32,253 nucleotides of DNA from Chlorobiaceae bacterium (GTDB lineage Bacteria; Bacteroidota; Chlorobiia; Chlorobiales; Chlorobiaceae), in the NCBI GenBank assembly GCA_013334525.1, contig JAAXXK010000031.1, positions 1 to 32,253 of the forward strand. The letters are read 5' to 3'. Made by a program: the position numbers and the translations under genes. Below, in pieces: positions 5,667 to 30,064 of this stretch. The number at the start of each line of letters is the position of its first letter. The stretch's first letter is position 1. Below the pieces are notes generated by a model that worked only from the letters and a program-made list of their open reading frames with translations, did not search any database and was not told the origin of the DNA.

Positions 5667-5682
5667 GGTATTTTTACGGTAT
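5667..5682 (+). promoter_or_regulatory. Regulon box A (GGTATTTTTACGGTAT)
   Basis: A full match to the 16-base element shared by several transcription units in this window. Here the GGTAT unit continues in phase: copies start at 5667, 5678, 5689 and 5711, i.e. offsets of 11, 11 and 22 bases. Direct repeats spaced by one helical turn are typical of sites for OmpR/PhoB-type or AraC-type regulators. Box A is 229 bases before the first dehydratase-activator gene. The binding protein is unknown, and none is encoded in the window. Confidence 0.75.
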
Positions 5683-5698
5683 CAGTAAGGTATAAATG

Positions 5699-5726
5699 TT
5701 GACAGTGAAGGGTATTCCAATATTTT
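5699..5726 (+). promoter_or_regulatory. Candidate -35/-10 promoter next to box A
   Basis: TTGACA at 5699-5704 and TATTTT at 5721-5726, with a 16-base spacer. The -35 begins 6 bases after the third GGTAT repeat, which suits an activator bound upstream of RNA polymerase. The fourth GGTAT lies inside the spacer. No equally clean promoter was seen beside the other boxes. Confidence 0.4.
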
Positions 5727-5822
5727 TTATCACGAAAGCCAGATCTCTGACGACAGGATTTTCCATGGGTTAAACCTGATGGAGAAATATTCCTTCAGCC
5801 TCCAATCTTCACGCTGGTCATG

Positions 5823-5869: not shown

Positions 5870-5910
5870 AAAGAACAGCGGTTTTAAATGAACATAATCG
5901 GAATAATTGA

Positions 5911-6780
5911 ATGAATAAGCATGACGTTCTGGCTGACGGGAAAGTTTCCGATCTGCGCCTGACCAATGTGATTGGCGTCGACATCGGCTCCCGTCAGGCA
6001 AAGGCGGTTCTTGTGTATGGCGAAGAGATTCAAACGGCAATTACTGCAAGCGGGGTCGATTCCCAGGAAACCGCAGCGCGACTGATCAGGAAACTCGGGA
6101 AGCAGACCGGCATAGAGCCCAGGGATATCGCATATCTGGTGGGCACAGGTTACGGGCGTATTGCGCTTGATTTTGATGCGTTTCCCTCGGAGGTTGTTAC
6201 CGAGATTTCATGCCATGCGATGGGGGCGCATTTTCTCAATGCAGGCACCAGAACCATCATCGATATAGGCGGACAGGATTCAAAAGCCATCAAGGTCGAT
6301 CCGGACAACGGTCGTGTCGTTGATTTTGTGATGAACGACAAATGTGCGGCAGGTACTGGCCGGTTTCTTGAAAAGGTTGCCGAACTGCTTGACTACACTC
6401 TTGAAGAGCTTGGAGAAAAGGCGAAGCTGTCGGAGAAAAAACTCGAAATCAGCAGTCAGTGCGTGGTGTTTGCCGAGTCCGAAGTCATTTCCCTCAAGGC
6501 CAGAGGTGAGCGACGGGAGGATATCGCAGCAGCGATTCATTTCGCTTCGGCCCGGCGTGTGCGAAACCTGGTTAACCGCGTGGGGCTTGAGCCGGAACTC
6601 GTCTTCTCTGGTGGTGTTTCAAACAATCCGGGGATGAGGTTCGCGCTTGAAGAGTTGATCGGCCACCCGATCAGGACCACGAAGCTCGACATGGTGTACG
6701 CGGGTGCTTTGGGCGCTGCGGTGTTTGCCCAGCGTTATTACGAGGGTATTCATGCTGCAGCAGAAAAGGGGGTCGCGTGA
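5911..6780 (+). CDS. 2-hydroxyacyl-CoA dehydratase activator-like ATPase (BadF/HgdC type)
   Basis: A 289-residue ASKHA-fold ATPase. These proteins form a dimer bridged by one [4Fe-4S] cluster and use ATP to inject a very low-potential electron into a partner dehydratase or double-cubane protein. Visible motifs are VIGVDIGSRQAKAV (phosphate 1), DIGGQDSKAI (phosphate 2), and the two cluster cysteines C145 (NDKCAAGTGRF) and C184 (SSQCVVFAESE). Length is close to the usual 260-270 residues. It overlaps the next gene (GTGA) and is about as similar to that gene's N-terminal half as a tandem duplicate would be. Ribosome site is weak. The electron acceptor is inferred to be the downstream dehydratase-like proteins. 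Confidence 0.92.
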   Translation: MNKHDVLADGKVSDLRLTNVIGVDIGSRQAKAVLVYGEEIQTAITASGVDSQETAARLIRKLGKQTGIEPRDIAYLVGTGYGRIALDFDAFPSEVVTEISCHAMGAHFLNAGTRTIIDIGGQDSKAIKVDPDNGRVVDFVMNDKCAAGTGRFLEKVAELLDYTLEELGEKAKLSEKKLEISSQCVVFAESEVISLKARGERREDIAAAIHFASARRVRNLVNRVGLEPELVFSGGVSNNPGMRFALEELIGHPIRTTKLDMVYAGALGAAVFAQRYYEGIHAAAEKGVA

Positions 6781-8786
6781 AACGTGTAGAGCTCCTTGAT
6801 CAAAGAGTGGTCGACAGAATCGACAGCAGCAGCGTGATCGGTGTCGACATCGGCTCCCGCGGAGCCAAAGCTGTGCTGTTGCATGGCGACGAGCTATATG
6901 TGGCGCAGGTGCCGACCGGCGTCAACATACAGGAAACAGCCGACGAATTGCTCGATGAACTCCTCGATGAGGCCGGTCTTGATCGCGGACAGATACGTTA
7001 CATCGTCGGCACGGGTTTTGGCCGGATCGCGTTGCAGTTCATCGGGATTCCTACAGAGGTCGTTACCGAAATTTCATGCCATGCGATGGGTGCGCATTAC
7101 CTGAACGCGGATACTCGTACGATCATCGATATCGGTGGGCAGGATTCGAAAGCGATACAGGTCGATCCGAAAAACGGCAAGGTCGTCAGGTTCATCATGA
7201 ACGACAAGTGCGCAGCAGGTACCGGCCGTTTTCTCGAAAAAGCAGCAAGCCTGCTGGAGTTCACGATTGCCGAACTTGGCCCGGCAGCCCTGCTCGCCAG
7301 GTCGCATCCCCAGATCAGCAGCCAGTGTGTCGTGTTTGCCGAATCTGAAATCATATCGCACCGTGCGCATGGTGAGACTCGCGAAGCCATTGCTGCCGGT
7401 CTGCACTATGCTTCTGCGCGGCGCGTCAAAAATCTGGTGAGCAAGATTCCGCTTGAAGGGGATTTGGTCTTTACCGGCGGTGTATCCAGCAACGTCGGCA
7501 TGAAAACCGCTCTCGAAGATCTCATCGGATTGCCCATTACCACCCTCAAGCTTGATCCGGTCTATGCGGGCGCATTGGGGGCTGCAGTTTATGCCCAGAA
7601 TTTTTATCTCAGGGATCGTAATGTTTCCGCTGAAAATTCAGCGATACATAAAGCGGATTTCAGTGAACTCATCGAGCGCACGACGCTGGCTGAAAAAGAG
7701 TTTATCGATCGATCGGATGTTAAGAAAGTAGGGTATCTGTGCAGTTACACCCCGATCGAGGTGCTTGCTGCTTCGGGCGTGGCTCATACGCGTCTTATGA
7801 AATGCGGAGACCAGGCGGTTGTTTCCAGCGGGGAGCAGTTCACCAAAAGCGTGTTCTGCGATTTTACAAAAAGTGTCCTGGGTCACTTTGCCGAAAAGAA
7901 CGAGCTTCATACCGGCCTCGATCGAATCGTTTCGTTCTATACCTGCGCATCGATGAAGGCTACCGCCGAGACGATCGATAACTTTTTTGTGCCGACACTT
8001 GGCTATGTAGTGCCCCGCGACGGAAGCCGTGAAGCTGGACGCACGTTTTTCCGCCATGAAATCCTCAATTTCCGCAATGATCTTGCCAAGCTGGGCGGCA
8101 AACAGGTCAGCGACGACGAGTTGTCGGAACAGATACGGCTCTACAACCGGGCACGTGCTCTGATCCGTGAAATTTCTGCACTGCGCAAGCGCGACAATCC
8201 GCCTCTGACCGGGCGCGATTTCCTTGAAATCACCAGGGCCTTCTATAATCTGCAGCCTGAAGCGCAACTCGTATTGCTCGAGGATGTGTATACGCGGCTC
8301 GCGGGTATACCGGAATCCGGGTCGGCACCGTTGCGTCTCATGATGGCCGGCGGCATCGTAGCCGATGGAGATCGGCGAATTCTGGACCTTGTTGAAGACC
8401 AGATCGGCGCACGCATTGTCGTGGAAGACCACTGCTCAGGCCTGGGAGCGTTTTACCACGATACGGACGAGAAGATCGATCCCTGGCAGGCACTTGCCAA
8501 CGCCTATCTCGACAAGGCGCCCTGCGCCCGGCAAACCCCACTCAGCAAACGTCTCGATTTCTCGGTTCAGCTTGCTTCAGAATATCGGGTTCAAGGGGTG
8601 ATCTACCATTATCTCAAGTTCTGTCCATGCTACGGCATGGCCAAAAACAGCTTTGTCCATCGATTCCAGGACCTGGGCCTTCCGGTACTGGAATTGGCCA
8701 GTGATTATTCCCTGGGCGATACAGGCCAGATCAAAACCCGTCTGGAAGCCTTTGTAGAGGTGCTAAAAGAAACACAGGAGAAATGA
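6777..8786 (+). CDS. Fusion of dehydratase activator and 2-hydroxyacyl-CoA dehydratase-like domain
   Basis: A 669-residue two-part protein. Residues 1-280 are a second activator with GVDIGSRGAKAV, DIGGQDSKAI and cluster cysteines C145 and C184 at the same positions as in the preceding gene. Residues from about 315 to the end are a 2-hydroxyacyl-CoA dehydratase D-component-like domain with cysteines in GYLCSY (C322), VFCDF (C361), FYTCAS, EDHCSGLG and KFCPCYGM that could hold an iron-sulfur or double-cubane cluster. It starts with GTG at 6777, overlapping the previous stop. Activator and acceptor are usually separate proteins, so the fusion ties the two. The substrate is unknown; no CoA-transferase or fermentation gene is nearby. 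Confidence 0.9.
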   Translation: MKRVELLDQRVVDRIDSSSVIGVDIGSRGAKAVLLHGDELYVAQVPTGVNIQETADELLDELLDEAGLDRGQIRYIVGTGFGRIALQFIGIPTEVVTEISCHAMGAHYLNADTRTIIDIGGQDSKAIQVDPKNGKVVRFIMNDKCAAGTGRFLEKAASLLEFTIAELGPAALLARSHPQISSQCVVFAESEIISHRAHGETREAIAAGLHYASARRVKNLVSKIPLEGDLVFTGGVSSNVGMKTALEDLIGLPITTLKLDPVYAGALGAAVYAQNFYLRDRNVSAENSAIHKADFSELIERTTLAEKEFIDRSDVKKVGYLCSYTPIEVLAASGVAHTRLMKCGDQAVVSSGEQFTKSVFCDFTKSVLGHFAEKNELHTGLDRIVSFYTCASMKATAETIDNFFVPTLGYVVPRDGSREAGRTFFRHEILNFRNDLAKLGGKQVSDDELSEQIRLYNRARALIREISALRKRDNPPLTGRDFLEITRAFYNLQPEAQLVLLEDVYTRLAGIPESGSAPLRLMMAGGIVADGDRRILDLVEDQIGARIVVEDHCSGLGAFYHDTDEKIDPWQALANAYLDKAPCARQTPLSKRLDFSVQLASEYRVQGVIYHYLKFCPCYGMAKNSFVHRFQDLGLPVLELASDYSLGDTGQIKTRLEAFVEVLKETQEK

Positions 8787-8787
8787 A

Positions 8788-10065
8788 ATGTCGCTGACTA
8801 CTACTGATAAGAGGCTCGTTGAGCCCGTTAAATCGTTTGCTTCGGGTTCTGACATCAGGAATCTGCATAAACTTCATGGTCAGCTCACCTATATCGAACA
8901 GAGCAAAAAGGAGCATGCATACTCACCGGCGGTTGTCAAATTGTATGATCTGGCGTTGAGCTATGTCGCAGATGCCGAAACCCACGCCAGAAACGGCGGG
9001 CGCGTGGCCAGGGTCATGGGCCCATGGATGGCCCCGCTGATGTACGCCATGGACATCGTGCCGATTCCTTTGAATGAACTCGACCGGAGTGGTTCGGACG
9101 ATACCATTACGATAGCCGAGGATCACTTTCAATTGCCAAAGGAAACCTGCTCGATGGTCTCCTCGATGCTGGGTGACCTGTATCTTCACCGGGATCGCCC
9201 GATAAAGGACCTTGTTGTTTTCAACGGCAGGTGCGAACCGCTCAATATCGCCTCGGACCTGGTCGCTGCCGAAGGCTACAGGGTTCATCGCATCGAGGCG
9301 GTCAATCGACCGCTCGACAACGATCCGGAGCGACTTGCCGTAACGGTGCGCTTCCTGGCAGACGAACTCGCGGATCTGGCTATCCGGCTTACCGGCAAGC
9401 CGGTAGACCTGGCGCGGGTTGAATTCGAGATCGCGCGTTCAAACCGCATTCTCGGCAAGGTTCGCCGGATCTTCGATCTGCGCAAGAGCAATCCCCTCTA
9501 TATCAAGACTCTGGGAACCATGTTCATGGTAACGGGCAGCGCAAACTTTTTCGGCAAGCCGGAGCAGTATGAGGCAACCCTCGATCTGCTTATCGAGGAA
9601 TTGATAACGGCTGATTATATCCGGTCGGCGCGCGGAAAGATTGTTCAGCTCGCCTGGGTGGGGGGACGCAGCCCTGCATTCGGTCTTTATAAAACCATCG
9701 ATGATTGCGGTGGCGCAGTCACGGCCTGGGCCACGCCAAACTCCTGGTCACAGGATTGGCCCAGGGCCCGCAATCCCCTGGAATCGATCGCCCTGCAGAT
9801 TCTTGGTAAAACCGGCGGCAATGGTCTGGGCTCACCGGTTCACCGCCTGAAGCCGATCGAACGGCTTGTCAACGAATTCGGGGCCAGCGGCATCATCTTC
9901 TACTCATTTCTCGGCTGCTTCAGGGGAGTTCACCAGGAGATTCAACGAGACCATTTCCAGAAACTGGCCATACCCTCAATCGGCCTGGAAGGCACTTTTC
10001 ATGTCGGGCCGCCTTCAGGTCAGTTGCTGACAAGGATTCGCGCATTCATTGAGATGCTTTCCTAG
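8788..10065 (+). CDS. 2-hydroxyacyl-CoA dehydratase-like second subunit
   Basis: A 425-residue protein of the HgdB/HgdC-like dehydratase-subunit family and the likely partner of the fusion protein upstream. Candidate [4Fe-4S] or double-cubane ligands are C121 (KETCSMV), C149 (NGRCEPLN) and C377 (FLGCFRGVHQEI), matching the three-cysteine pattern of the family. It starts one base after the preceding stop, with ACAGGAG as ribosome site, so all three genes form one operon under box A. These heterodimers either remove water from 2-hydroxyacyl-CoA or, in the double-cubane branch, reduce small molecules. Which applies here cannot be read. Confidence 0.88.
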   Translation: MSLTTTDKRLVEPVKSFASGSDIRNLHKLHGQLTYIEQSKKEHAYSPAVVKLYDLALSYVADAETHARNGGRVARVMGPWMAPLMYAMDIVPIPLNELDRSGSDDTITIAEDHFQLPKETCSMVSSMLGDLYLHRDRPIKDLVVFNGRCEPLNIASDLVAAEGYRVHRIEAVNRPLDNDPERLAVTVRFLADELADLAIRLTGKPVDLARVEFEIARSNRILGKVRRIFDLRKSNPLYIKTLGTMFMVTGSANFFGKPEQYEATLDLLIEELITADYIRSARGKIVQLAWVGGRSPAFGLYKTIDDCGGAVTAWATPNSWSQDWPRARNPLESIALQILGKTGGNGLGSPVHRLKPIERLVNEFGASGIIFYSFLGCFRGVHQEIQRDHFQKLAIPSIGLEGTFHVGPPSGQLLTRIRAFIEMLS

Positions 10066-10305: not shown

Positions 10306-11361
10306 ATGACGATGAACAATAAGGTAAAGATTTTGATACCCGCTCTCCTGGCTATTCTGATTGGCGGATCATGGTGGTTCGCAGCAAGAAAGGAGGTGAC
10401 GAAAACAGCGGATGTCGTTATCCGGGAGATCCAGACGACGGCTCCGACGAACTGGGAGCTTGCCAATAAACTGAGCGGTCACGATATCCTGGCCGAAGAG
10501 GGGGTCCGGATTGAACCGGTTACCGCTATTTCAGGAAGCGGGGGCACCATCGCGCTTCAGGCGCTCCTGGCCGGCAACATTGATGTCGGTGGTTCAGCAT
10601 GGCCGGCATTTATCAACATCATTGCTCGTGGCGGCAAGATAAAGGCGGTTATTCCATGGCATGTTTCCACCAGGAACAACGAAGGGGGAACCCAGGGGCT
10701 GGTTGTCCTTGACAGCAGCAGCATTCACACCATCAAGGATCTTGCAGGCAAAAGGATCGGGGTTAATGTGCTTGGTGCGGAAGCGGATTATGTCATACGA
10801 AAGTATCTCAAAAAGAACGGTATTCCATATTCACAGGTTGAACTTGTCATCCTGCCGGTTGACAAACAGGAGCAGATGCTTCGCAAAGGGCAGATCGATG
10901 CCATGTCGTCAGGAGGTATCGGCGGACCCAATTATGAAATGGCGCTTGAGAACGGTGGCGTACGCCAGATTCCCGGTACCACGAACTATGATACCAAGGG
11001 TGAAGCGGTGTTGAGTGCCATCGGGTTCAGGAACGACTTTATTGAGAAACACCCTGATGCCGTCAGGCGGTATGTCCGTGCCTATGACAGGTCGAGGCGA
11101 ATCATTTATGAGGCTTTTCAAAAAGATCCCGGGAGGGTGAGAAACGCTTATGCTGAAGTCAGTATCAAGAGAGGGGCCAATCCGGCTCTCGCAAAGTTTT
11201 TCAGGGCCACAAGCTGGACACCGGACTTTCCGTTGATTGTCGACAAGGATCTCCAGTGGTGGTTTGACCGGTTTGCGGAGGATGGGATCCTCGGAGCGGG
11301 GCAGCTGAAACCTTCGGATATTTATACGAACGAATTCAATCCATCGTATATAAAACAGTGA
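10306..11361 (+). CDS. SsuA/TauA/NitT-like ABC substrate-binding protein
   Basis: A 351-residue periplasmic binding protein. An N-terminal hydrophobic segment (residues 8-26) acts as signal peptide or anchor. There is no lipobox; the protein contains no cysteine. The fold is the aliphatic-sulfonate/nitrate/taurine type, with ALLAGNIDVGG, IKDLAGKRIGVN and a KHPDAVRRYVRAY helix. No permease or ATPase gene lies beside it, so it is an orphan that would need a partner elsewhere. It follows the dehydratase operon by 240 bases that contain nothing recognisable. An ATG six bases further in (10312) is a possible alternative start; neither has a strong ribosome site. It lacks the regulon box. Confidence 0.87.
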   Translation: MTMNNKVKILIPALLAILIGGSWWFAARKEVTKTADVVIREIQTTAPTNWELANKLSGHDILAEEGVRIEPVTAISGSGGTIALQALLAGNIDVGGSAWPAFINIIARGGKIKAVIPWHVSTRNNEGGTQGLVVLDSSSIHTIKDLAGKRIGVNVLGAEADYVIRKYLKKNGIPYSQVELVILPVDKQEQMLRKGQIDAMSSGGIGGPNYEMALENGGVRQIPGTTNYDTKGEAVLSAIGFRNDFIEKHPDAVRRYVRAYDRSRRIIYEAFQKDPGRVRNAYAEVSIKRGANPALAKFFRATSWTPDFPLIVDKDLQWWFDRFAEDGILGAGQLKPSDIYTNEFNPSYIKQ

Positions 11362-11434: not shown

Positions 11435-12658
11435 TCAATGCAGCTGCTGCAGATCCAGCCGACGCAGTTTCGGGGCCAGCCTTGCCGTTGCGGCAACCAC
11501 GGAGAGCGTCATTATCCCGCCGAAAATCACCGATGGAACCAATCCCATCAGACGGGCCGCAATACCGGACTCGAACGCCCCGAGTTCATTGGACGAGCCG
11601 ATAAATATGCCATTTATTGCCGAAACACGCCCGCGCATGACATCGGGTGTCGAGAGCTGTATGATGGTTGTACGCATGACTACCGACACTCCATCGCATA
11701 CCCCTGAGAGCAGAAGCAGGATGGCCGCGACCCATATGTTGGCCGACAGGGCGAAAGAGATCATGCAGATGCCGAATCCTGCCACAGCTCCCAAAAGCCA
11801 GCGGCCACCATGGAGATTGATGGGACGGCGCGCAAGCACAACACCGGTCAACAGCGCACCTATGGCAGGAGCTGCACGAAGGAAGCCAAGTGCCTCAGGC
11901 CCGTAATGAAAGACGTCGGAAATGAATGCAGGCAGCATGGAAACTGCGCCCCCGAACAGGACGGCGAACATGTCGAGTGTTTGTGCTCCAAGGATGAGCT
12001 GGTTGCCGAAGACGAATTGCAAACCCTCACCGATGCTCTTGAAGACGGACGGAGAGTTTTGTGCTGCACGAGGCTCCTTGACATGCATGGATAGCAGGGC
12101 AGCTGCAGCAAACAGGCTCAAAACCGATGCAGTTCCGTAAGTAATTGTTTTGCCAGCCCATGCGACCATGAGACCTCCCAATGCCGGACCCAGCACCAAT
12201 CCCAACTGGAACACGGAAGTGCCGATTCCGGCAGCTCGGGCATAGGCACTTCTCGGAAGGATCAGGGCGAACAGGGAGCTGTAGGATGGGGCGATAAACG
12301 CCCTGGCGATCCCGCCGACGGCAACGGCGCTGTAGAGCCAGATGGTCGGTTTGCCGCTGACGATCCAGCCTCCCGACACTATTGTCAGCGTGAAGGCATT
12401 GCTGGCCAGCAACAGGCTGGCCAGTACACCGAACATGCGTCGGGAGTAGTGATCGATCGCATGACCTGCAAAAGGGGCGCACAGGAAGTAGGGAATGACC
12501 TCTGCCAGACCGATCAATCCAAGTGAAAGGGGGTCATGGGTCAGCTCGTATATGTGCCAGCCTACAACAACGGCTATGATCTGATATGCCAGAGTAATGC
12601 AGATACGAAATGATAACAGCTTGAGAAAAGGGCGATTTGCCGTAACTGAAAATTGCAT
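11435..12658 (-). CDS. MFS exporter, EntS-like family
   Basis: A roughly 407-residue integral membrane protein with about twelve hydrophobic segments, similar in style to the EntS/multidrug MFS exporters. The cytoplasmic loop motif after helix 2 (GHAIDHYSRRMFG) matches the MFS G-x3-D-x-x-R-R signature, and a second MRGRVSAING loop matches the repeat in the C-half. The frame can extend to a TTG at 12688, but the ATG at 12658 places the first helix at the family's usual distance from the N-terminus. Neither has a good ribosome site. It is convergent with the binding-protein gene. A link to the surrounding pathway is only positional. Confidence 0.87.
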   Translation of the reverse strand: MQFSVTANRPFLKLLSFRICITLAYQIIAVVVGWHIYELTHDPLSLGLIGLAEVIPYFLCAPFAGHAIDHYSRRMFGVLASLLLASNAFTLTIVSGGWIVSGKPTIWLYSAVAVGGIARAFIAPSYSSLFALILPRSAYARAAGIGTSVFQLGLVLGPALGGLMVAWAGKTITYGTASVLSLFAAAALLSMHVKEPRAAQNSPSVFKSIGEGLQFVFGNQLILGAQTLDMFAVLFGGAVSMLPAFISDVFHYGPEALGFLRAAPAIGALLTGVVLARRPINLHGGRWLLGAVAGFGICMISFALSANIWVAAILLLLSGVCDGVSVVMRTTIIQLSTPDVMRGRVSAINGIFIGSSNELGAFESGIAARLMGLVPSVIFGGIMTLSVVAATARLAPKLRRLDLQQLH

Positions 12659-12861
12659 GAATAATGGTTGCTTTAACCTGGAGGTCAATCAGGGGGTTTC
12701 GGTTTCCAATGTAAGCTTTTCGGTTCCCTGTCAGGCAGGGCAAAACCAGGGGGCTGCATTTGCCGGAATTGAACGAGTTTGAAAATCAATGCAGGGGTTG
12801 GCCTATGATGGCCCTCTGCCCTTCGCCGGGTCAATTTACGGTACATAATTTAACCAGGGCA

Positions 12862-14460: not shown

Positions 14461-14476
14461 ATACCATAAAAATCCC
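14461..14476 (-). promoter_or_regulatory. Regulon box B (GGGATTTTTATGGTAT)
   Basis: One mismatch to the shared 16-base element, on the minus strand facing RS1. A further GGTAT begins at 14498, 22 bases (two 11-base steps) before the box start at 14476. The match to box F upstream of RS4 continues past the 16-mer: minus-strand 14476-14453 and plus-strand 30049-30072 agree at 23 of 24 positions. Confidence 0.7.
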
Positions 14477-20297: not shown

Positions 20298-20328
20298 CCT
20301 TATACCAACATCAACTATTGAACTCAAG

Positions 20329-21030: not shown

Positions 21031-21088
21031 CGGTAATGTTTCGGCAAATCCGAAGGATAGACGGGCCAAACAACAAAAGGGAGAATAC

Positions 21089-21661: not shown

Positions 21662-21713
21662 TCCTGTCAGGGGAGACTTCAATCATGTATCAGGAAACAT
21701 AACAATACAGGCC

Positions 21714-22004
21714 ATGTCACAATTAACTGTGATCGCAACAGTCGTTGCGGAAAAAGAGTCTGCTGAGCAGCTCAAAAGCGAACTATTGAAGCTCGTGGCT
21801 CCAACCAGGCAGGAGGAGGGATGCATCAGCTACACCCTGCACCAGGACAACGAAGACCCGGCCGTTTTCATTTTTCATGAAACATGGCAGAGCCCCGTAC
21901 ATCTGGAGAGGCACATAGCAAGCGAGCACTACAGGGCTTACGCCAGCGCGGCCGAAGGTTTGATTGCAGGGAAAGCCGTGAACAAATTGACGCTGATCGG
22001 ATAA
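21714..22004 (+). CDS. ABM-fold (antibiotic biosynthesis monooxygenase) domain protein
   Basis: A 96-residue dimeric ferredoxin-like fold protein of the ABM family. PTRQEEGCISYTLHQDNEDP, IFHETWQSP and HLERHIASEHYRAY are the usual conserved stretches. The family includes quinol monooxygenases and heme-degrading IsdG-type proteins as well as many of unknown function, so no activity is claimed. The frame stays open upstream to 21579, overlapping the flavin reductase gene, but ATG 21714 is the natural family start. It is the last gene before a 445-base gap and so the probable end of the RS2 operon. Confidence 0.85.
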   Translation: MSQLTVIATVVAEKESAEQLKSELLKLVAPTRQEEGCISYTLHQDNEDPAVFIFHETWQSPVHLERHIASEHYRAYASAAEGLIAGKAVNKLTLIG

Positions 22005-22449
22005 CGGGTTCCGTGAGGCCTTCTCAAAATGCCGGTCAATAATTACATGGCAGGATCTGAAACGAGCGCATTGTCCTGTTGACAAGTCGCTATTCAACGA
22101 GGGCAGTCGCACAGGTAGCCGCAAGTCAGGCAAGTCACCTCAACCTGACTTGTCAGACGGCCTGCATTTGCGTTTAACAAAACGGTTTTTGTGCCTGTTG
22201 ATCTATCGTCACGCTTTTTCGTTGTTGGAAATATTCGGGATCTCCGATCAGGTTGATGGCGGATGATAGAGTACCGTCATTCAGGTATTTTTACGGTATC
22301 TTATTGTATTTGCTTTAGATATTGATGTTTATTGATGACAGGGCAACTGAAAGGGTCGCGACCTGTACCCTGATTATGGAGTGATGCGGTCAGCGTTCTG
22401 CCTGTTATCCGCAAAGTGAAACCAACTGTAATGAAGAGGAGATAAAACA
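22005..22449. other. Intergenic region with hairpin and box D
   Basis: No gene is supported in these 445 bases. CAAGTCAGG (22122-22130) can pair with CCTGACTTG (22144-22152), a 9-pair stem that may end the upstream operon, though no U tract follows. Box D is further right. Its leader contains a GGTCGCGACC palindrome (22354-22363) nested between CAGGG and CCCTG. Confidence 0.5.
22284..22299 (+). promoter_or_regulatory. Regulon box D (GGTATTTTTACGGTAT)
   Basis: A perfect copy of the shared element, identical to box A, 150 bases before the PPOX-fold gene. It is the shortest leader of the set. Confidence 0.7.
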
Positions 22450-22911
22450 ATGAGCCGAGAAGAGCGTCTGGCCGAAATCCAGCAATACATCCTGGATACG
22501 AAATATGCACTGCTCACCTATGTTCGCAGTGACCTGAGCCCGATAACGCGAACGATGGGCAGCTTTGCACCTGATGGCCTGAACATTTTCTTTTCAACAG
22601 GGAAGGCGACATCAAAGGTGAAGGAAATCGAGAAAAACAGGCGGGCTTCATTCTTTTTTGAGCATGATAACCAGTTGCCCGAGCAATGGAAGAGTCTCCT
22701 TCTGGTCGGTGAGGCAGAAGCTCTTTCGGCGGGGTCATCCGATTACGACAAGGCGGTCGAGCGCCTGGCTGCCAAAAGTCCCCGATTCAGGCAGCGAGTC
22801 GAAAATGGGGAACTGGACAGTGCCGCTATATACAGGATCAACACCAGCGAACTTGAATATGTGGACCGCAGCACGTCAAACTCCCCGACCCGAATAAACA
22901 TAGCCCGATAA
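22450..22911 (+). CDS. Pyridoxamine 5'-phosphate oxidase-fold flavoprotein
   Basis: A 153-residue single-domain split beta-barrel protein of the general PPOX-like family. The early strand (KYALLTYV), the middle GLNIFFSTGKATSKVKEIEKNRRASFFFEH block and the C-terminal IYRINTSELEYVD strand are characteristic. GAGGAG lies 7-8 bases before the ATG. It is a single-gene unit with its own box D, so it is regulated with the radical SAM and reductase genes. It may bind FMN, F420 or heme; residues alone do not decide. Confidence 0.88.
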   Translation: MSREERLAEIQQYILDTKYALLTYVRSDLSPITRTMGSFAPDGLNIFFSTGKATSKVKEIEKNRRASFFFEHDNQLPEQWKSLLLVGEAEALSAGSSDYDKAVERLAAKSPRFRQRVENGELDSAAIYRINTSELEYVDRSTSNSPTRINIAR

Positions 22912-23391
22912 CATGTCCGCCACCACATGTCGTCAGTAGCTCCATCATTCGGCAAACCTCCAAAAATCGTTTCCTCTGTTATCCGGAATGAGGGTGGCGG
23001 TTTGTTGCTTGTCTGTCATTCAGTGTTATAAAAAGAGGGGATATTCAACCCATATCGAGGGTATTTTTATGGTATATGCCTGATGGTTTGCAGGATATTT
23101 TCTTTTATTGGTCGTTGTTGATTGTCAATAACATGGAGCATGGTTTGCAAAGAGGATAGATCATCATTTATCCCTGGATATTCCTGCCCGATTATTTGTT
23201 TGCACATCTGTTTGGAAATATTTCTACAGCCGACAACTGAGTCTCATGAAAGAGATGTGTGATGCAAATTCCGATCATTTCCGTTTGCCTCAAAATCCTT
23301 TATTCTACTCTTTGCTAAAAGGGTGTTTACGGATGTTGACATATGGATAATCTCAATACAATTATTTCCAATAACCACAGGAGAGAGCTTT
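22912..23391. other. Intergenic leader of RS3 with box E
   Basis: A 480-base A+T-rich region with no supported gene. It contains box E and a 316-base stretch before RS3. A small ACATGT...ACATGT inverted repeat lies right at the upstream stop (22911-22930). No strong terminator was seen. Confidence 0.5.
23060..23075 (+). promoter_or_regulatory. Regulon box E (GGTATTTTTATGGTAT)
   Basis: A perfect copy of the shared element, 316 bases before RS3. The sequence 23054-23070 is also repeated with one mismatch at 26164-26180, just before the ABC exporter. Confidence 0.7.
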
Positions 23392-24636
23392 ATGACTGCC
23401 ACCCTGACAGCTACATCGGAACGTGTGCTGACTCTTAATGACGTTATCGCAAAATATTCCCATATTCCGCGTCTTCTCATCCTCAGGATCGACGCGCAAA
23501 TCCGTGGAATCCACTATACGGATCAGGCGCTAAGCGCGGTGGATCCGGCTATTCACCAGATTTACAGCCGTGCCCGGCACGGAATAAAAGAGGATGAATC
23601 AAAACAGTATCCGGCCTCTCTTCTGCTTCGCGACGGCTCACTTATCATCGCCTCCCATACCCCGCTCGAAAAAAATCCATACCTTGTCGATCTTGTCGAC
23701 GGTCGCCTGGCCCTGGTAGATAACGATGAAATCATTGAGTTCGTCGAGCTATGGGAAAAACCGGCCTACTACGAGCTTTATACCTCTTCTGGCATTCCGA
23801 TGAAAGACGTTGTCAGTGCGCGTCCGCAAAGGCTCGACCTGAGTTCTTCAACCTATTGCCACTTCGGGGCCAAGCACAAGGGGTGCAAATTCTGCGCCAT
23901 CTATCCCCCGGACAGGAAGACCGTTGCTGCCCGCATCAAGCCGCAGGACATCACTGAAACGATCCGTGCCGCAATCAGCGAACCGGGGCGTTTCTCATTC
24001 ATCCACATTACCGGCGGCACCAAGCTTGGAGGAAAAGAGCTTCTGGACGCTGAGCTTGAGCACTACATCGAAACCCTTCAGGCGATCGGCGAGAACTTCT
24101 CGACTAAAAAATTCCCATGCGATGTGACCACCACCGCATTCAGTGAAAAGCAGTTGCACCGGCTCTACGATGAGACAGGCATCATGGCCTACACCACCGA
24201 TATGGAGGTGCTTGACGAAGAGAAGTTCAACTGGATCTGCCCCGGCAAGTCGGAAACCATAGGCTACAGGGAGTGGAAGAAGCGCCTTATTACGGCGGTC
24301 GGCATTTTTGGCAGAGGTTACGTCGGAACTGGTATCGTTGCGGGAGTAGAGCTTGCAAAGCCGTTTGGGTTCACCAGTGAGGACGAAGCGCTGCGCTCCA
24401 CCCTTGCGGAGGCGGAAGATCTTGCTGCAAATGGCGTCACAACTTGGGGAACAGTCTGGAAGGTGCTTCCCGGGGCGGAATTCCGTGACCAGAAAGGTCC
24501 ATCGCTCGAGTATTGCGTGCGTCTTGCAGAAGGGCTCTACCAGTTAAGGGTCAAGTACGACCTGAAGGTCGATTTCAACGACTACAGGCGTTGCGGAAAC
24601 CATCCGGACGCCGATCTGTCCAGGCTCCTGAAATGA
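23392..24636 (+). CDS. Radical SAM protein RS3, CX8CX2C type
   Basis: A 414-residue paralog of RS1 and RS4. Cluster cysteines are C156, C165 and C168 in CHFGAKHKGCKFC. NWICPGK and the C-terminal YRRCGNHPDADLSR are conserved. The segment after the cluster differs from the others: RS1 and RS4 have a short N-H-N-K-Q-Q stretch, whereas RS3 has YPPDRKTVAAR, which may alter specificity. The frame extends 23 residues upstream, but the ATG at 23392 has AGGAG 11 bases before it and lines up with the RS1 and RS4 starts. It is co-transcribed with the Ldh2-type gene 43 bases downstream. Confidence 0.88.
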   Translation: MTATLTATSERVLTLNDVIAKYSHIPRLLILRIDAQIRGIHYTDQALSAVDPAIHQIYSRARHGIKEDESKQYPASLLLRDGSLIIASHTPLEKNPYLVDLVDGRLALVDNDEIIEFVELWEKPAYYELYTSSGIPMKDVVSARPQRLDLSSSTYCHFGAKHKGCKFCAIYPPDRKTVAARIKPQDITETIRAAISEPGRFSFIHITGGTKLGGKELLDAELEHYIETLQAIGENFSTKKFPCDVTTTAFSEKQLHRLYDETGIMAYTTDMEVLDEEKFNWICPGKSETIGYREWKKRLITAVGIFGRGYVGTGIVAGVELAKPFGFTSEDEALRSTLAEAEDLAANGVTTWGTVWKVLPGAEFRDQKGPSLEYCVRLAEGLYQLRVKYDLKVDFNDYRRCGNHPDADLSRLLK

Positions 24637-24669: not shown

Positions 24670-24700
24670 GCGCTTATCAATGAACTTGACTGATAAGCGC
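24670..24700 (+). promoter_or_regulatory. 10-pair hairpin holding the Ldh2 start codon in its loop
   Basis: GCGCTTATCA (24670-24679) is the exact reverse complement of TGATAAGCGC (24691-24700). The 11-base loop begins with the ATG start codon (24680). The ribosome site AAAGGGG ends at the foot of the stem. The structure could limit or gate translation of the dehydrogenase relative to RS3. Confidence 0.6.
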
Positions 24701-25747
24701 ACCGGGTCGCACTACAAGGCAGAGGAGTTGTTGAGGTGGGCGAGCCAGGTTCTTCAGGCTGCCGACATGCCGCTCCGGGATGCGTTCAATACCGCCCGAT
24801 TACTCGTTCGCAGCGACCAGCGAGGTTATTACACCCACGGCCTGGTGCGACTGCCTTCATACGTCGATCGATTGAGGGAGGGGGCGGTTAATCCCAATCC
24901 GGTTATCACTATTGCCCGCAAATCATCATCATGGGTCGTCGACGCCGATGGTGCGCTTGGCCAGGTGCTGGCAATGCGTGTAATCGAGGCTGCGACGCCA
25001 TACCTCCAGAGTGAACCGCTGCTCTGGGTAAACGTCCGGCGGACAGGTCATCTGGGTGCGTTGGGGATCATTGCGCTGGAAGCTGCCGAGGCCGGCTTTA
25101 TCTGCATGATGGGGCAGCGTACTCCGCCCCTTCTGGGGTTGCCGGGATTTGGGCGTTGCGCTATCGGCAACAATCCCTTTGCTTTCGCCGCCCCTGCCGG
25201 TGACAACCGGCCGCCGTTCGTGTTCGACATGGCCTGCAGCGTTGCGGCGAGGGGTCATATTTTATTGGCTTCGCGGCAGGGTAACCCGATTCCTGATGAT
25301 TGGGCGCTCGCTACGGACGGGACACCGACAACCGATGCCGGCAAAGCGGTCGGTGGTATCCTGCGCCCTGCAGGCGGCTACAAAGGCATGGGCTTGTCCA
25401 TGATGATCGAGTGCATGGCCGCAGCGTTTTGCGCAGATGCGGGTTCAACGGAAGAGGTCGGCATGGAGGTGCATGCAAATGGAGCGGGGGGGCGACAGAG
25501 TGCATTTTTTCTCTTTTTGAACCCGGCTGTCGCCGGCGACCGGGAGGCGTTTACCTCATATATGCGCCATTGGATTGACTATTACGTAGAGAGCGGTGAG
25601 GAGGCCCGAATTCCTGGGCAACGAGGCGACTCAATGGAAGTGTATTCCTGCCATAGCGGTATTGCCTACTCATCGCAGATCGAATCGGAGTTGCACTGTT
25701 TTGGCCTAAGCTTTGGGATCAGGATGCCATTACCTTTGATATGCTGA
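24680..25747 (+). CDS. Malate/L-lactate dehydrogenase (Ldh2) family oxidoreductase
   Basis: A 355-residue protein of the Ldh2/YlbC/ComC family, NAD(P)-dependent 2-hydroxyacid, ureidoglycolate or imine reductases with their own fold. Typical features are SDQRGYYTHGLVRLPSYVDRL near residue 50 (THG with the conserved catalytic-region His), RRTGHLGALG near residue 125, and GGYKGMGLSMMIE near residue 235. AAAGGGG precedes the ATG by about 9 bases. Position behind RS3 under box E suggests it reduces a keto-acid or imine group of the same product. The substrate is not predictable from sequence. Confidence 0.9.
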   Translation: MNLTDKRTGSHYKAEELLRWASQVLQAADMPLRDAFNTARLLVRSDQRGYYTHGLVRLPSYVDRLREGAVNPNPVITIARKSSSWVVDADGALGQVLAMRVIEAATPYLQSEPLLWVNVRRTGHLGALGIIALEAAEAGFICMMGQRTPPLLGLPGFGRCAIGNNPFAFAAPAGDNRPPFVFDMACSVAARGHILLASRQGNPIPDDWALATDGTPTTDAGKAVGGILRPAGGYKGMGLSMMIECMAAAFCADAGSTEEVGMEVHANGAGGRQSAFFLFLNPAVAGDREAFTSYMRHWIDYYVESGEEARIPGQRGDSMEVYSCHSGIAYSSQIESELHCFGLSFGIRMPLPLIC

Positions 25748-26180: not shown

Positions 26181-26202
26181 CAAGAAATAAGTTAAGGTGA
26201 TC

Positions 26203-28065
26203 GTGTCCGGAATAAGTCTAGTCAGCGCATACATCAAGCAGAACAAGGCGAGCTATTTTCTCGGTATGGGTCTGGTTGCGACCGGAAGCTTTTTTGCGGC
26301 GCAGATTCCGCGTCTGCTCGGGCGTGTCACCGACAGCTTGCGGAACGGGAGCCCCGGGTTGGCTGAAATGGCCGGTTATGCAGGGTTGATTGTTCTGATT
26401 GGCGGAGTTCGTGTGGTCGCGGGCTGGAGCGGCCGTGTTCTTGTGCATCACAAGGGACGGGTGTTGACCTATCGCCTGCGCAAGGAGCTGTTTGAAAAAT
26501 GGGGTACCCTTTCGCCATCATATTACCATCGCAACAACGTCGGCGATATGATTTCCCATGCATTGAGCGATGTTGAGGTGGTACGTGAACTGGTCTCCCA
26601 GGGCTTTAACCAAGGCATAAGCGCGACGGCATTGTTCCTTGGTGCCCTTTTGCTCATGGTCCTGAATGTCGATTGGCGGCTGACGCTTGCAGGGATGGGG
26701 CCTCTTCTGGTGATTCCTCTCCTGGTCAAGTGGCTTGGTCCGGCAATCAGGCTTCAATCCCAACGCGCCCAGGAAGCAATTGGTGACATGGCCCAGACAA
26801 CGGAAGAGGTAGTTGAAGGAATTCGTGCCATCAAGGCTTTTGGTACGGAGAAGGTCTTTATCGACCGCTTTGAGAAGAGGGTTGATGCGATAGCCGAAGA
26901 AAAGATGCGATTTGCACATCTCTCGGCACTGTTTACCGCCCTTGTGCCCCTGATGGTCAATCTTGGCTTCATTCTCGTTCTGGGATATGGCGGGATCCTC
27001 GTGACGAGCAGGGTGATCTCCCTTGGGGATTTCGTAGCCTTCACGTTGTATGTTGTGCTTTTGCGCCTGCCTCTGGAACAGTTGGGCAACGTCGTCAATA
27101 TTGTTCAACGCGCTGTTCCCTCATTGAACAGGATTGATGAACTCTTCCATATCGTTCCCGATATACTCGACAAAAAGGATGTACTTGACCGGCCGATTCA
27201 GGGAGCCATAGAGGTCAGGGGCCTCACCTTCCGTTACCCCGGAAGCGACAGGAGTGTGCTGGAGGATATTTCGTTTTCCGTCAAACCGGGCCAGACTCTC
27301 GGTATCATCGGTTCAGTAGGAAGCGGCAAGTCCTCTCTGGCTGATCTTTTACTGCGCCTCTATGACCCACCTTCAGGAACGGTTTTTTTTGATGGCCAGG
27401 ATATACTGACCTATCCATTGCGCCGGCTCAGGGAGGGCATAGCCTATGTCCCCCAGGACGGCTTTCTCTTTTCCTCCACGGTGCTAGAGAACATTGGCTT
27501 CTCTGATGAATTTCCCGATCGCGAAAGGGCTGAGAGTTGCGCAAGGGTTGCTGCCGTTCATGATAACATCGGCCGCTTTTCCGAAGGGTACGATACGGAA
27601 ATCGGTGAGCGGGGAATACGTTTGTCCGGAGGGCAGAAGCAGCGCCTGGCCATTGCCCGAATGATCTATAAGGATGCTCCGATCCAGATCATGGATGATT
27701 CCCTGAGCGCAGTAGACGCTGCAACAGAGTGGAGGATCCTGGAAAATCTTGATCGATTGTCAACTTCTGAAACAGGAAAGCAGGAGGGCAAGGTCACGAT
27801 AATCATCTCCCATAGGTTGAGCGCGGTCCGGCATGCAGATGAAATCCTGGTTTTTGAAGAGGGGCGGATTGTCGAGCGTGGGACTCATGCCTCACTGTTA
27901 TCTATTGACGGGATATACGCCGCGCAGTGGTTCATCCAGACCGGCCAGTTCGGCAACAGTGAGACCGATGGCGCAGTTGTGAAGGACAAACGAGGACTTC
28001 AGGAGCCCGTCCTGGATGTAGAGAGAGACTCTCTGGAAGCCGGTCATCTGGAGGATGTTTCATGA
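26203..28065 (+). CDS. ABC exporter half-transporter A (LSGGQ, degenerate catalytic Glu)
   Basis: A 620-residue type I ABC exporter subunit: six-helix membrane domain (about residues 15-310) and C-terminal ATPase. Walker A is GSVGSGKSS near residue 370, the ABC signature RLSGGQKQR is canonical, but Walker B reads IQIMDDSLSAVD, with Asp in place of the catalytic Glu. This is the usual makeup of one partner in asymmetric heterodimers such as BmrCD or TM287/288. GTG 26203 has AAGG five bases upstream; a GTG at 26197 overlaps that site and is less likely. It overlaps the next gene as ATGA. It presumably exports the product or protects the cell from it. Confidence 0.9.
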   Translation: MSGISLVSAYIKQNKASYFLGMGLVATGSFFAAQIPRLLGRVTDSLRNGSPGLAEMAGYAGLIVLIGGVRVVAGWSGRVLVHHKGRVLTYRLRKELFEKWGTLSPSYYHRNNVGDMISHALSDVEVVRELVSQGFNQGISATALFLGALLLMVLNVDWRLTLAGMGPLLVIPLLVKWLGPAIRLQSQRAQEAIGDMAQTTEEVVEGIRAIKAFGTEKVFIDRFEKRVDAIAEEKMRFAHLSALFTALVPLMVNLGFILVLGYGGILVTSRVISLGDFVAFTLYVVLLRLPLEQLGNVVNIVQRAVPSLNRIDELFHIVPDILDKKDVLDRPIQGAIEVRGLTFRYPGSDRSVLEDISFSVKPGQTLGIIGSVGSGKSSLADLLLRLYDPPSGTVFFDGQDILTYPLRRLREGIAYVPQDGFLFSSTVLENIGFSDEFPDRERAESCARVAAVHDNIGRFSEGYDTEIGERGIRLSGGQKQRLAIARMIYKDAPIQIMDDSLSAVDAATEWRILENLDRLSTSETGKQEGKVTIIISHRLSAVRHADEILVFEEGRIVERGTHASLLSIDGIYAAQWFIQTGQFGNSETDGAVVKDKRGLQEPVLDVERDSLEAGHLEDVS

Positions 28066-29819
28066 ACGGGAAATCTCCATCCCCTGGTGCACTGGTGCCC
28101 TTGATTCCTTACATGAAGACGCACCGCAATGGCCTTGCGCTTGTTTTCGTCCTGGTAGTGTCCGTTGTATTTATCGATCTTGCCCAGCCATGGCTGGTGA
28201 AAGAGGCTATCGACCGCTACGTCTCGGTTTCCCGACCGGACTCCATGGCGATTCTTCGCATGGCGGCAGCTTATTTGGGACTTGTTCTGCTGGCTTTCGG
28301 GCTCACCTATTACCAGGATACCCTGCTGCAGAGAATCGGGCTGTCGATTGTGCGATCCATACGTCTCGATCTTTTCAGGCATATCCAGAGCCTCTCCCTT
28401 CGTTACTTCGACCAGAACAGCGCCGGCCGGGTCATCACCAATGTGGTCAGCGATACCGAAGCGCTCAACAACTTTTTTACCCAGTTTCTCTCCAATACGC
28501 TCAGGGGTGGCTTCTCCCTGGTGCTGATTATGGTGTTTATGGCTCGTCTGGACCCGGTTATAGCTCTTTACTGTTTTCTCCTGGTTCCTGTTGTGACGGT
28601 GTCGGCATTCTTTTTCCAGAGGAAAATCCAGTCCATCAACGCTGAAGTCAGGCATCGGCTGGGTCTGCTCATTGGTTTCCTGGCCGAGAACCTGAGCGGT
28701 ATGGCCATTGTGCAGATTTTCCATCAGGAGGCCAAACAGCAGAAGCGGTTTGACGATCGAAACAAGGTGTTGCTGGCGGCCACCATCAGGGAGAACCGTT
28801 GGTTCCTGCTTTTTTTCAATGTCACCGAAATGCTGGCAGACCTTACCGTGGCTGCCCTGGTATGGTTTGGGGGAAAAGGTGTGATTGAAGGGACGATATC
28901 TTTTGGTGTACTGTATGCTTTTGTAGGATACATCAGGCGCTTTTTCCAGCCGATCACCATCATATCGCAACAGATGAACATCCTGCAATCTTCGATCGTC
29001 GCTTCGATGCGCATCAGCAGTACCCTTGAGGAGGTGCCGGATATCAGGGAGGTTGATGGTGCAAAAGCGCCGGAGGTGGCCGGCGGCATAAAACTTGTCG
29101 GTGTTTGCCTGGCCTATCTTCCCGGCCAGGAGGTGCTCCATGATATCAACCTGACGATCCGGCCCGGCGAACGGGTAGGTTTCGTCGGGGCCACCGGCGC
29201 AGGCAAGAGCTCGATCATGAACCTGGTTACCAGGTTTTATGATGTTACCGAAGGTGCGGTGCTTGTCGACGGAAAGGACATTCGCCTGTGGCCGCAGGAT
29301 ATGCTGCGACGTACGGTCGGCATCGTGCAGCAGGATGTCACGCTGTTTGCCGGAACGGTTACCGACAACGTACGTTTTTTCCAGTCCGGAATTAACGGGG
29401 AGCGGGTCCGGGAGGCCTGTCGTCTTGTTGGCGCCGAACCGTTCATTTTACGCCTGCCTCAAGGCTACGATACCATTCTGTCGGAGAAAGCCAGCACCCT
29501 GTCGGCCGGTGAACGGCAGCTTCTCTCCTTTGCCCGCGTCCTGATATTCGACCCCCGGATACTTATCCTCGATGAAGCGACCTCATGCCTTGATTCAAGG
29601 GCCGAAGAGGTTTTGCAGCAGGCCATCCACAGGGTCTCTGCCGGTCGGACCCTGCTTGTCATCGCCCACCGGTTGTCGACGGTGCAGGAGTTGGACACGA
29701 TCTGCGTACTTGAGCAGGGGCGGATCGTCGAGGCCGGTACGCATCTCGAACTGCTCGGCATGAAGGGTTATTACTGGAGACTGCACCAGTCACGGATGCT
29801 GCTCGACGAGGTGGCCTGA
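28062..29819 (+). CDS. ABC exporter half-transporter B (degenerate signature, intact catalytic Glu)
   Basis: A 585-residue partner of the preceding exporter subunit, with a six-helix membrane domain and C-terminal ATPase. Walker A is GATGAGKSS near residue 376, the ABC signature is non-canonical (TLSAGERQL), and Walker B ILILDEATSCLD keeps the catalytic Glu. Together the two proteins build one working ATP site (LSGGQ of subunit A with Glu of subunit B) and one degenerate site. The ATG overlaps the upstream stop, indicating coupled translation. The cargo is unknown; lipids, peptides and drugs are all known for the class. Confidence 0.92.
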   Translation: MNGKSPSPGALVPLIPYMKTHRNGLALVFVLVVSVVFIDLAQPWLVKEAIDRYVSVSRPDSMAILRMAAAYLGLVLLAFGLTYYQDTLLQRIGLSIVRSIRLDLFRHIQSLSLRYFDQNSAGRVITNVVSDTEALNNFFTQFLSNTLRGGFSLVLIMVFMARLDPVIALYCFLLVPVVTVSAFFFQRKIQSINAEVRHRLGLLIGFLAENLSGMAIVQIFHQEAKQQKRFDDRNKVLLAATIRENRWFLLFFNVTEMLADLTVAALVWFGGKGVIEGTISFGVLYAFVGYIRRFFQPITIISQQMNILQSSIVASMRISSTLEEVPDIREVDGAKAPEVAGGIKLVGVCLAYLPGQEVLHDINLTIRPGERVGFVGATGAGKSSIMNLVTRFYDVTEGAVLVDGKDIRLWPQDMLRRTVGIVQQDVTLFAGTVTDNVRFFQSGINGERVREACRLVGAEPFILRLPQGYDTILSEKASTLSAGERQLLSFARVLIFDPRILILDEATSCLDSRAEEVLQQAIHRVSAGRTLLVIAHRLSTVQELDTICVLEQGRIVEAGTHLELLGMKGYYWRLHQSRMLLDEVA

Positions 29820-30048
29820 AAGGTGGTGGCAGCTTCCGGAACGGAGAATCTGCGGCGGCAGGGGCTGCTCTTTATGGCGAAAAAGCCAGGTACGGTTGCT
29901 CATTCCATCGTCTGATACCATCATGGCGATATCAGCAATGTTTAGGGAATCTATGTTCAGCATGGAATTTATGAGTAGTAAACGTATGGGAAACAATTGA
30001 TTGTGCTTTTTTTATCAGGTTTGCGGGATGTTCGCCTACTCTTTATCA

Positions 30049-30064
30049 GGTATTTTTATGGTAT
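30049..30064 (+). promoter_or_regulatory. Regulon box F (GGTATTTTTATGGTAT)
   Basis: A perfect copy of the shared element, 283 bases before RS4. Its downstream flank to 30072 is also conserved with box B of the paralogous RS1. TTTATCAGGT just before it also occurs at 30011-30020. Confidence 0.7.

Follow-up and report, generated by a model that had tools for sequence, protein, structure and literature searches.

A 16-base box on a Chlorobiaceae contig as the probable operator of a family-wide sulfur-limitation regulon

The window, which means the whole stretch of DNA analysed here, is composed of 32,253 nucleotides from a Chlorobiaceae bacterium (GCA_013334525.1, contig JAAXXK010000031.1, forward strand) and is contig 68 of a 2.55-Mb genome. 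A first-pass annotation had noticed that a 16-base box with a GGTAT direct repeat recurs before several of its genes, and this box is the subject of this study. The 16-mer was found exactly at 5667, 14910, 22284, 23060 and 30049, with one mismatch at 14461-14476 on the minus strand and with two mismatches at 14771, all as annotated. The seven copies were intergenic and oriented toward an hgd operon of the 2-hydroxyacyl-CoA dehydratase type, the radical SAM gene RS1, RS2 followed by nitrogenase-like nflHDK, a PPOX gene, RS3 and RS4. An eighth match with three mismatches (26252) was located inside an open reading frame (ORF) for an ABC transporter (26197-28065). At up to three mismatches, eight matches were obtained against 0.30 expected (100 shuffles, largest 2), which agrees with the earlier statement that the copies cannot be chance. 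Of the 27 window ORFs that were read and domain-scanned, none encodes a regulator, as had been noted, which supports a regulon box whose regulator lies outside the window.

When the sites were aligned with their flanks, the 16-mer turned out to be only the right-hand portion of an extended operator, TACC-N8-GGTAT-N6-GGTAT. A weight matrix of this long form was built from 24 of the 28 listed sites, leaving out 14771, L051, L052 and L055. The 24 sites score 31.5-62.2, and the exclusion of L052 was too strict because it later scored 33.9. The first operator (5655..5682, +; TACC 5655, GGTAT 5667, GGTAT 5678; weak –10-like element at 5711; score 33.6) precedes three hgd genes on the same strand. 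They encode an HgdC-like acyl-CoA dehydratase activase of the BcrAD_BadFG type (5911..6780; TIGR00241 237 bits, PF01869), a fused activase and HgdB/double-cubane-like subunit (6777..8786; TIGR00241 above cut-off; double-cubane model NF040772 205 bits, below its cut-off of 350) and an HgdB/double-cubane-like subunit (8788..10065; PF06050 120 bits). With TIGR00241 and PF06050 above cut-off, an ASKHA activase and HgdB-type subunits of a 2-hydroxyacyl-CoA dehydratase or double-cubane reductase are present. An SsuA-like substrate-binding protein gene (10306..11361, +; TIGR01728 97 bits, below cut-off; PF09084) starts 240 bp after hgdB. On the minus strand, an operator at 14461..14488 (score 44.0), in which a GGGAT variant faces TCCC, precedes RS1 (12923..14179; NF045502 187 bits, above cut-off), a variant radical SAM gene with a C-X8-C-X2-C motif, and a gene for a major facilitator superfamily (MFS) transporter (11435..12688, –; PF07690) lies downstream of RS1. 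The substrate-binding protein and MFS genes had been annotated as having no box. This holds for their own 5' ends, but both lie downstream of box-fronted genes on the same strands, so read-through is possible and they may be transcribed from the box promoters.

The remaining sites and genes are all on the plus strand. A weaker box copy (14759..14786; half-site TGCC, second GGTAT changed to GTGAT; score 22.0) and the third operator (14898..14925; half-site TACT; –10-like element at 14954; score 34.0) precede RS2 (15312..16505; C-X8-C-X2-C; NF045502 450 bits), an IsrB-like variant radical SAM gene directly upstream of nflH. Then follow the IsrH-like nflH (16619..17494; TIGR01287 370 bits, below the 394 cut-off), the IsrD-like nflD (17522..18934; PF00148) and the IsrK-like nflK (18936..20297; PF00148). 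The short-chain dehydrogenase, flavin-reductase-like and ABM genes after nflK (20242..22004; PF00106, PF01613, PF03992) are probably the rest of this operon. The fourth operator (22272..22299; half-site TACC; –10 TTTATT at 22328; score 36.6) precedes a PPOX-type (PNPOx) protein gene (22450..22911; PF01243 32.1 bits), and the fifth (23048..23075; degenerate half-site ACCC; –10 TTTATT at 23104; score 40.6) precedes the variant radical SAM gene RS3 (23392..24636, start moved to the ATG at 23392; NF045502 187 bits). The sixth (30037..30064; half-site TACT; score 42.7) precedes RS4 (30348..31604; PF04055), also a variant radical SAM gene, and PPOX2 (31681..32160), a recurrent partner of RS1/RS4 in relatives whose label comes from its look and which has no Pfam match. 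RS1, RS3 and RS4 make up a radical SAM group apart from RS2: they are 63–81% identical among themselves (RS3 to RS4 64%, RS4 to RS1 81%) and about 29% identical to RS2.

The whole-genome scan that the first-pass annotation had proposed found 6 exact copies of the 16-mer, 4 with one mismatch and 3 with two mismatches. The many unlinked copies that would mark a dispersed repeat were not seen. At up to one mismatch there were 10 copies in the genome, six of them in the window, against 2 for the reversed control, a pattern that can match the box itself since the sequence is repetitive. At up to two mismatches there were 13 copies against 11, which is no excess, and weak copies are therefore not to be counted. 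The two 2-mismatch copies outside the window, on C50 and C63, score –3.5 and –26.3 and look like chance. The long form gave 7 matches in the same genome against none for the reversed control.

Of the four close copies outside the window, three are located at sulfur genes and one at a porin-like gene. The site on contig C7 is upstream of sbp-cysT-cysW-cysA (sbp, cysT and cysW above NCBIfam cut-offs). The site on C1 is upstream of tRNA-Cys and then sulfite reductase-cysH-cysD, with a metB/Y-like gene and cysK divergent from the box-fronted genes. Most of the C7 and C1 names came from family scans, while cysA and cysD were named by likeness to relatives. The site at C21:3422 is upstream of a DUF4395-metY-response regulator operon, and the second C21 site is upstream of a porin-like gene that has metY on one side and genes for sulfonate transport on the other. 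"Porin-like" is a reading of the sequence, as two reference proteins have no Pfam match; two other box- or hgd-linked proteins of the outer-membrane type match Porin_O_P. Thus, the ten sites with up to one mismatch precede window genes six times, sulfur genes three times and a porin-like gene once. The box had been thought to set the limits of a radical-SAM and nif-like system. This did not hold, because the same element fronts genes for sulfate uptake, sulfate reduction, metY, tRNA-Cys and porin-like proteins. The original observation is real, and it was understated: what the box marks in the window is probably one local section of a sulfur-limitation regulon that extends across the family.

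The long pattern was searched at two mismatches in 86 Chlorobiaceae genomes and gave 151 matches in 59 of them, against 5 for the reversed control. Matches of the 16-mer with one mismatch in relatives, at loci L049, L051, L054, L055 and L059, had poor long-form scores and are probably chance, as are those outside the family at L014 and L033-L036. Box loci were read in 28 of the 59 box-bearing genomes, one per genome. Twenty-three of the 28 flank sbp, sulfite reductase or a metB/metY-like gene (three of these only a divergent metB/Y-like gene), three flank only a porin-like gene, and two flank neither, one of which fronts tRNA-Cys. Boxes also precede the kinds of genes found in the window: PPOX2-MFS-RS2(n)-nflHDK operons in genomes G074 and G085, a porin/substrate-binding protein/radical SAM/ssu/nflHDK run in G091, RS1-PPOX2-ssu genes in G070 and G104, and RS4-PPOX2-hgdC-hgdC/B-hgdB in G092. 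Other box-fronted genes are a B12-methyltransferase set in G070, alkylsulfatase, sulfatase and radical SAM-SPASM genes in G100 and an alkylsulfatase in G074.

The fused HgdC/HgdB protein was found in 9 of the 86 genomes. A box precedes hgdC in G000 (33.6), G006 (14.9) and G008 (16.3), the last two being weak, and in G074 a box (38.9) is on the opposite strand of the gap before hgdC. No box was found near the hgd operon within 19 kb in G069 or within a 5-kb stretch in G085, G097 and G100. Among 22 distinct tRNA-Cys copies in the fetched loci, 21 have a same-strand upstream box within 3 kb, and 13 of these have it within 69-220 nt; because boxes or sulfur genes were the basis on which the loci were picked, 21 of 22 is not a rate. 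These copies (L043:2799-2875, minus strand, and 20 further ones) lie behind the box, between the box and sulfite reductase or after a porin-like gene. Another tRNA-Cys was seen at L142 (G034) between DUF4395 and metY-response regulator, where no upstream box was found.

Several side observations were made at these loci. Three genes for the catalytic subunit of carbon monoxide dehydrogenase (CODH; L255:4844-6895, L124:3061-5157 and L139:2870-4873, all above the TIGR01702 cut-off) adjoin ssu-type transport genes. Two of them are next to the candidate response regulator described below, and the L255 copy has a box; the box-fronted copy with ssu genes is in G097. Possibly, and as speculation, they serve carbonyl sulfide or related chemistry. 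Corrinoid methyltransferase-like genes of the MtaA/CmuA type and a B12-binding protein lie near or behind boxes at L045:12239-16080 and L259:6377-9975, together with a protein which we take to be RamA-like. A use of methylated sulfur is possible.

The site architecture is conserved. TACC, GGTA and GGTA occupy all three places in 58 of 78 non-redundant sites. In 52 non-redundant sites aligned, a –35-like CTTGG(A) starts 3 bp after the box and TTTTATT occupies +43 to +49, counted from the first G of the box, so that a –10-like TTTATT stands 28 bp after the box. TTTATT (at least 5/6) was found at +44 in 44 of the 78 sites, while the next offset reached 15 and the median offset 0, and the –10 stretch lay outside the matrix used for site selection. 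CTTGG (at least 4/5) at +19 in 48 of the 78 is partly circular, since it is inside the matrix. In the genome of the window, 9 of 11 sites have TTTATT at +44 with at least 4/6, against a null of 9%. The –35/–10 spacing is 18 bp and each hexamer matches the sigma-70 consensus at 4/6. At the 14461 site, the changed GGGAT stands opposite a TCCC of the inverted half-site. No other site among the 78 has such a pair, and seven others have TCCC with plain GGTA; this offers weak support for a pairing of the half-sites. The distance from box to start codon is 150-386 nt. A riboswitch or known leader RNA in this interval was rejected, as Rfam at the gathering threshold found only two tRNAs in the window and five loci. 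The box is most likely a DNA element because it is upstream of the –10-like element.

For the understanding of the nflHDK genes, the published pattern of isethionate reductase (Isr) of Rhodobacter capsulatus, encoded by isrBHDK (nflBHDK), was compared (PMC11423573, from the part of the text available). The likeness lies in the gene order of a radical SAM enzyme before H-D-K, in the cysteines of IsrH, IsrD and IsrK and in the linkage to sulfonate transport. In the window, RS2 is just upstream of H-D-K, as isrB is. NflH has Cys99 and Cys135 (numbered from 16616), which match the IsrH pattern. NflD contains a single cysteine, Cys76, at the position of NifD Cys88, with proline at the Cys154 position in the alignment with 9FMG, and it has no cofactor Cys275, as expected of IsrD. 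NflK has Cys12, Cys37 and Cys100, compared with Cys12, Cys37 and Cys99 of IsrK. At the NifD Cys62 position, which is Arg in Isr, phmmer puts Asp51, and this region is poorly aligned. The window nflHDK thus appears to fit the cysteine pattern of isethionate reductase, the likeness being drawn from the published pattern rather than from R. capsulatus sequences. By sequence, the closest solved relative of NflD and NflK is methylthio-alkane reductase MarHDK (PDB 9FMG), which is described, in the part of the source available, as a C–S cleaving nitrogenase-like enzyme (PMC12552129). In contrast to MarHDK, NflD has no other cluster-ligating cysteines. NflDK as a methylthio-alkane reductase was therefore rejected, since the D-subunit cysteines ligating the P-cluster and [Fe8S9C] are missing. 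Close relatives of nflD at 58–66% were seen in records titled Geobacter or Geobacteraceae (L204, L205, L211 and L217, including OR-1). They may reflect transfer or, for metagenome-assembled genomes, a binning error; no box was found at the four Geobacter-titled nfl loci.

When isethionate replaces sulfate, R. capsulatus induces nflBHDK, sulfate-transport genes, cysteine desulfurase and serine acetyltransferase, the same gene classes as in the regulon here, according to the text available (PMC11423573). Compared with R. capsulatus Isr, the window adds three RS1/3/4-type radical SAM genes, PPOX genes and the HgdC/HgdB operon, with boxes of their own. According to the same source, Isr is nearly confined to Bacillata, Spirochaeta, Pseudomonadota and Myxococcota; "Chlorob" does not occur in its available text (PMC11423573). 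The present reading would extend the isethionate-reductase idea to a lineage unnamed there.

A candidate for the protein that binds the box is a LuxR/NarL-type response regulator encoded in the box-fronted C21 operon. In relatives, it clusters with DUF4395 and metY, and in many also with cysK. Its receiver and GerE helix-turn-helix (HTH) domains are above cut-off (PF00072 36.8 bits, PF00196 44.1 bits). Across the 86 genomes, regulator and box occur together in 56, the regulator only in 8, the box only in 3 and neither in 19 (p 4e-10, a value without tree correction). The regulator is present in all 23 nflD-bearing genomes of the 86, and among 37 family genomes it is in 19 of 19 with sbp and 5 of 18 without (p 2e-6). 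In the receiver, the phospho-acceptor Asp59 and Lys109 are conserved in 30 of 30 aligned proteins. The acidic pair of typical receivers is reduced to one residue (Asp15), and the switch position, typically Thr/Ser, is Thr (15), Cys (8), Ser (6) or Glu (1) among the 30. Judged from these residues, phosphorylation is plausible without being certain. The fold predicted for the candidate (mean pLDDT 81) is similar to those of RcsB, LiaR and NarL, response regulators which share the receiver and GerE HTH; compared with these, the candidate keeps only one acidic-pair residue and has a variable switch residue. NarL/RcsB/LiaR-type proteins bind inverted and direct half-sites.

Taken together, the box probably serves as the operator in an activator-dependent promoter through which Chlorobiaceae turn on a regulon for sulfur limitation, with the window genes as anaerobic organosulfur scavengers and the metY-linked response regulator as the best activator candidate. 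The data show how the site is built, which genes it precedes, that it is conserved and that it co-occurs with the regulator; from this we infer that the bound protein activates, that sulfur is the signal and which regulator and substrates are concerned. The activator would bind the three GGTAT/ATACC half-sites just upstream of the weak –35/–10 pair and recruit RNA polymerase. Its targets in this genome would be sulfate uptake, sulfite/APS reduction with tRNA-Cys, the metY-regulator operon, the porin-like gene and the window genes. Among these, nflHDK with RS2 would form an isethionate-reductase-type nitrogenase-like enzyme, and further radical-SAM, PPOX and HgdC/HgdB-type units would scavenge organosulfur anaerobically, a role suggested because they are co-regulated with sulfur genes. 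Because the same box precedes the sulfate-uptake, sulfate-reduction and cysteine genes of this genome and its relatives, the nitrogenase-like and radical-SAM genes of the window most likely serve green sulfur bacteria as an emergency set for drawing sulfur from organic compounds when sulfide is short. A bolder proposal, which we hold only tentatively, is a second, as yet undescribed ATP-driven C–S-cleaving system beside Isr, composed of HgdC-HgdC/B-HgdB with RS1/3/4-type radical SAM proteins and PPOX, acting on sulfonates or other organosulfur, with tRNA-Cys on the same switch and all under a LuxR-type response regulator. It is raised because boxes precede hgdC in some genomes and because 21 of the 22 tRNA-Cys copies in the selected loci have a box upstream.

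Some results weigh against this explanation. A box match scoring at least 5 was found in only 4 of the 23 Chlorobi-titled nfl loci (flanks up to 10 kb). Two of the other 19 (G074 and G091) have a box further upstream; no box was found near nfl in G011, G023, G030, G035 and G069, some of which are cut by contig ends; and the G019 locus has only a weak site of 4.6. A rescan of the box-less nfl loci at a lower threshold gave only weak sites, in G006, G008 and G019. The inverted half-site is an exact TACC in only 2 of the 7 window sites (5667 and 22284); it has one change at 14461, 14771, 14910 and 30049 and two at 23060. Also, the box sites come from related genes and genomes, so the counts are not independent. 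Most regulator operons in relatives have no strong box of their own, and the box occurs without the regulator in G003, G086 and G097. The last two genomes are 85% and 80% complete. In G003, the regulator gene was removed by a deletion relative to G002, and the similarity to G002 breaks at the –10 of the box.

The strongest rival keeps the sulfur regulon and has the box bound by another regulator (Rrf2 or another family); on this view, the response regulator is no more than a companion of the metY-cysK cluster. In eight genomes, the response regulator was found where there is no long-form box, and each of the 12 genomes tested has Rrf2 regulators. The screen covered LysR, Crp-type, Rrf2 and the candidate. 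In each of the 12 genomes two Rrf2 genes were above cut-off, a copy number that is the same in 9 box-bearing and 3 box-less genomes, whereas the response regulator tracks the box. LysR (PF03466) was in none of the 9 box-bearing genomes and in 2 of the 3 box-less ones tested, and no Crp-type HTH was above cut-off in the 12. We regard another regulator as unlikely, though it deserves attention. CysB/Cbl/SalR (LysR) and CysR (Crp) are examples of one regulator joining sulfate uptake, sulfate reduction and organosulfur scavenging. Their regulons resemble the present one in this respect, and the difference is that the candidate here is a LuxR/NarL-type response regulator; such LysR or Crp proteins were rejected as the regulator since their genes were missing above cut-off in the box-bearing genomes tested.

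If the box were instead a repressor operator, the bound protein would block the promoters when cysteine or sulfide is plentiful. Many sulfur regulators repress, and the –35-like element lies only 4 bp beyond the end of the last half-site. On the other hand, the operator is wholly upstream of the –35 at a fixed distance and both hexamers are weak, which is the usual look of an activator-dependent promoter. Repression is thus an improbable mode. The earlier reading of an activator site formed by the GGTAT direct repeat was probably right as to activation and incomplete as to form, since the element also has a third half-site, in inverted orientation, and a core promoter that is fixed. Still less probable is a regulon answering another stress of anoxic life, such as low redox potential or metal or iron limitation, with the sulfur genes only a part of it. 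Several targets are low-potential Fe-S enzymes and the CODH catalytic-subunit gene in G097 has a box, but the targets that recur most steadily are those for sulfate uptake, sulfite reductase, cysteine/methionine synthesis and tRNA-Cys, and sulfatases appear as targets too. A dispersed repeat or chance, to which only the closeness of the 2-mismatch genome count to the reversed control would point, is refuted by the window excess, the genome and family counts against the control, the ten of ten close copies that precede one functional set and the fixed –10 spacing.

Green sulfur bacteria are known for living on sulfide. If the activator-dependent sulfur regulon proposed here is right, many of them should possess a programme devoted to sulfur scarcity, under a regulator type without a described sulfur role in the open-access literature searched. 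In that literature, no report was found of a sulfur regulon, box or regulator in Chlorobi, nor of LuxR-type sulfur regulators or sulfur-controlled tRNA-Cys, which is weak evidence of absence. Assimilatory sulfate reduction has been described in iron-oxidising Chlorobi, and the part of that text available names no such box or sulfur regulator (PMC5498476). By the same source, C. luteolum and C. ferrooxidans possess the pathway for sulfate assimilation. The system is of a known kind, a sulfur-starvation regulon, with an unusual regulator candidate and with unusual members, namely the nitrogenase-like and HgdC/HgdB reductases and tRNA-Cys. The box also assigns functions by shared regulation to RS1/3/4-PPOX, to HgdC/HgdB with its radical SAM partner and to the CODH-like genes by sulfonate transporters, and it predicts that tRNA-Cys genes are controlled by sulfur supply. 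These predictions are directly testable in cultured Chlorobium strains.

Beside the regulator, an encapsulin was observed. At L123:1481-4916, a family 2B encapsulin with a family-2 cargo-like cysteine desulfurase lies beside cysK/cysE; in this cluster (G000, contig C49) cysK is followed by cysE, the encapsulin and the cysteine desulfurase, which scores 795 bits against the 800 cut-off of the encapsulin-cargo model. The neighbouring L123:5078-5707 is one of three regulator paralogs in the genome and has an internal TAA according to the whole-genome search. An SrpI-like shell gene was also found in the regulator cluster of G034, and other clusters look alike by sequence starts only. This arrangement resembles the SrpI sulfur-starvation encapsulin operons, with an encapsulin and a cargo-like cysteine desulfurase by cysK/cysE-type genes; the shell here differs in being family 2B by NCBIfam, with a cyclic nucleotide-binding domain. 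As far as the available text goes, 2b shells are found near terpenoid genes and 2a shells near sulfur genes (PMC8049743).

Two further features of the window lie between RS3 and RS4 on the plus strand. Two ABC transporters whose membrane and ATPase domains are fused (26197..29819; PF00664, PF00005) have homologs that recur in the nfl loci of relatives. A gene of an Ldh_2-family dehydrogenase (24680..25747; PF02615 279 bits) follows RS3, and a sulfonate role is possible for it because the sulfolactate dehydrogenases are members of this family.

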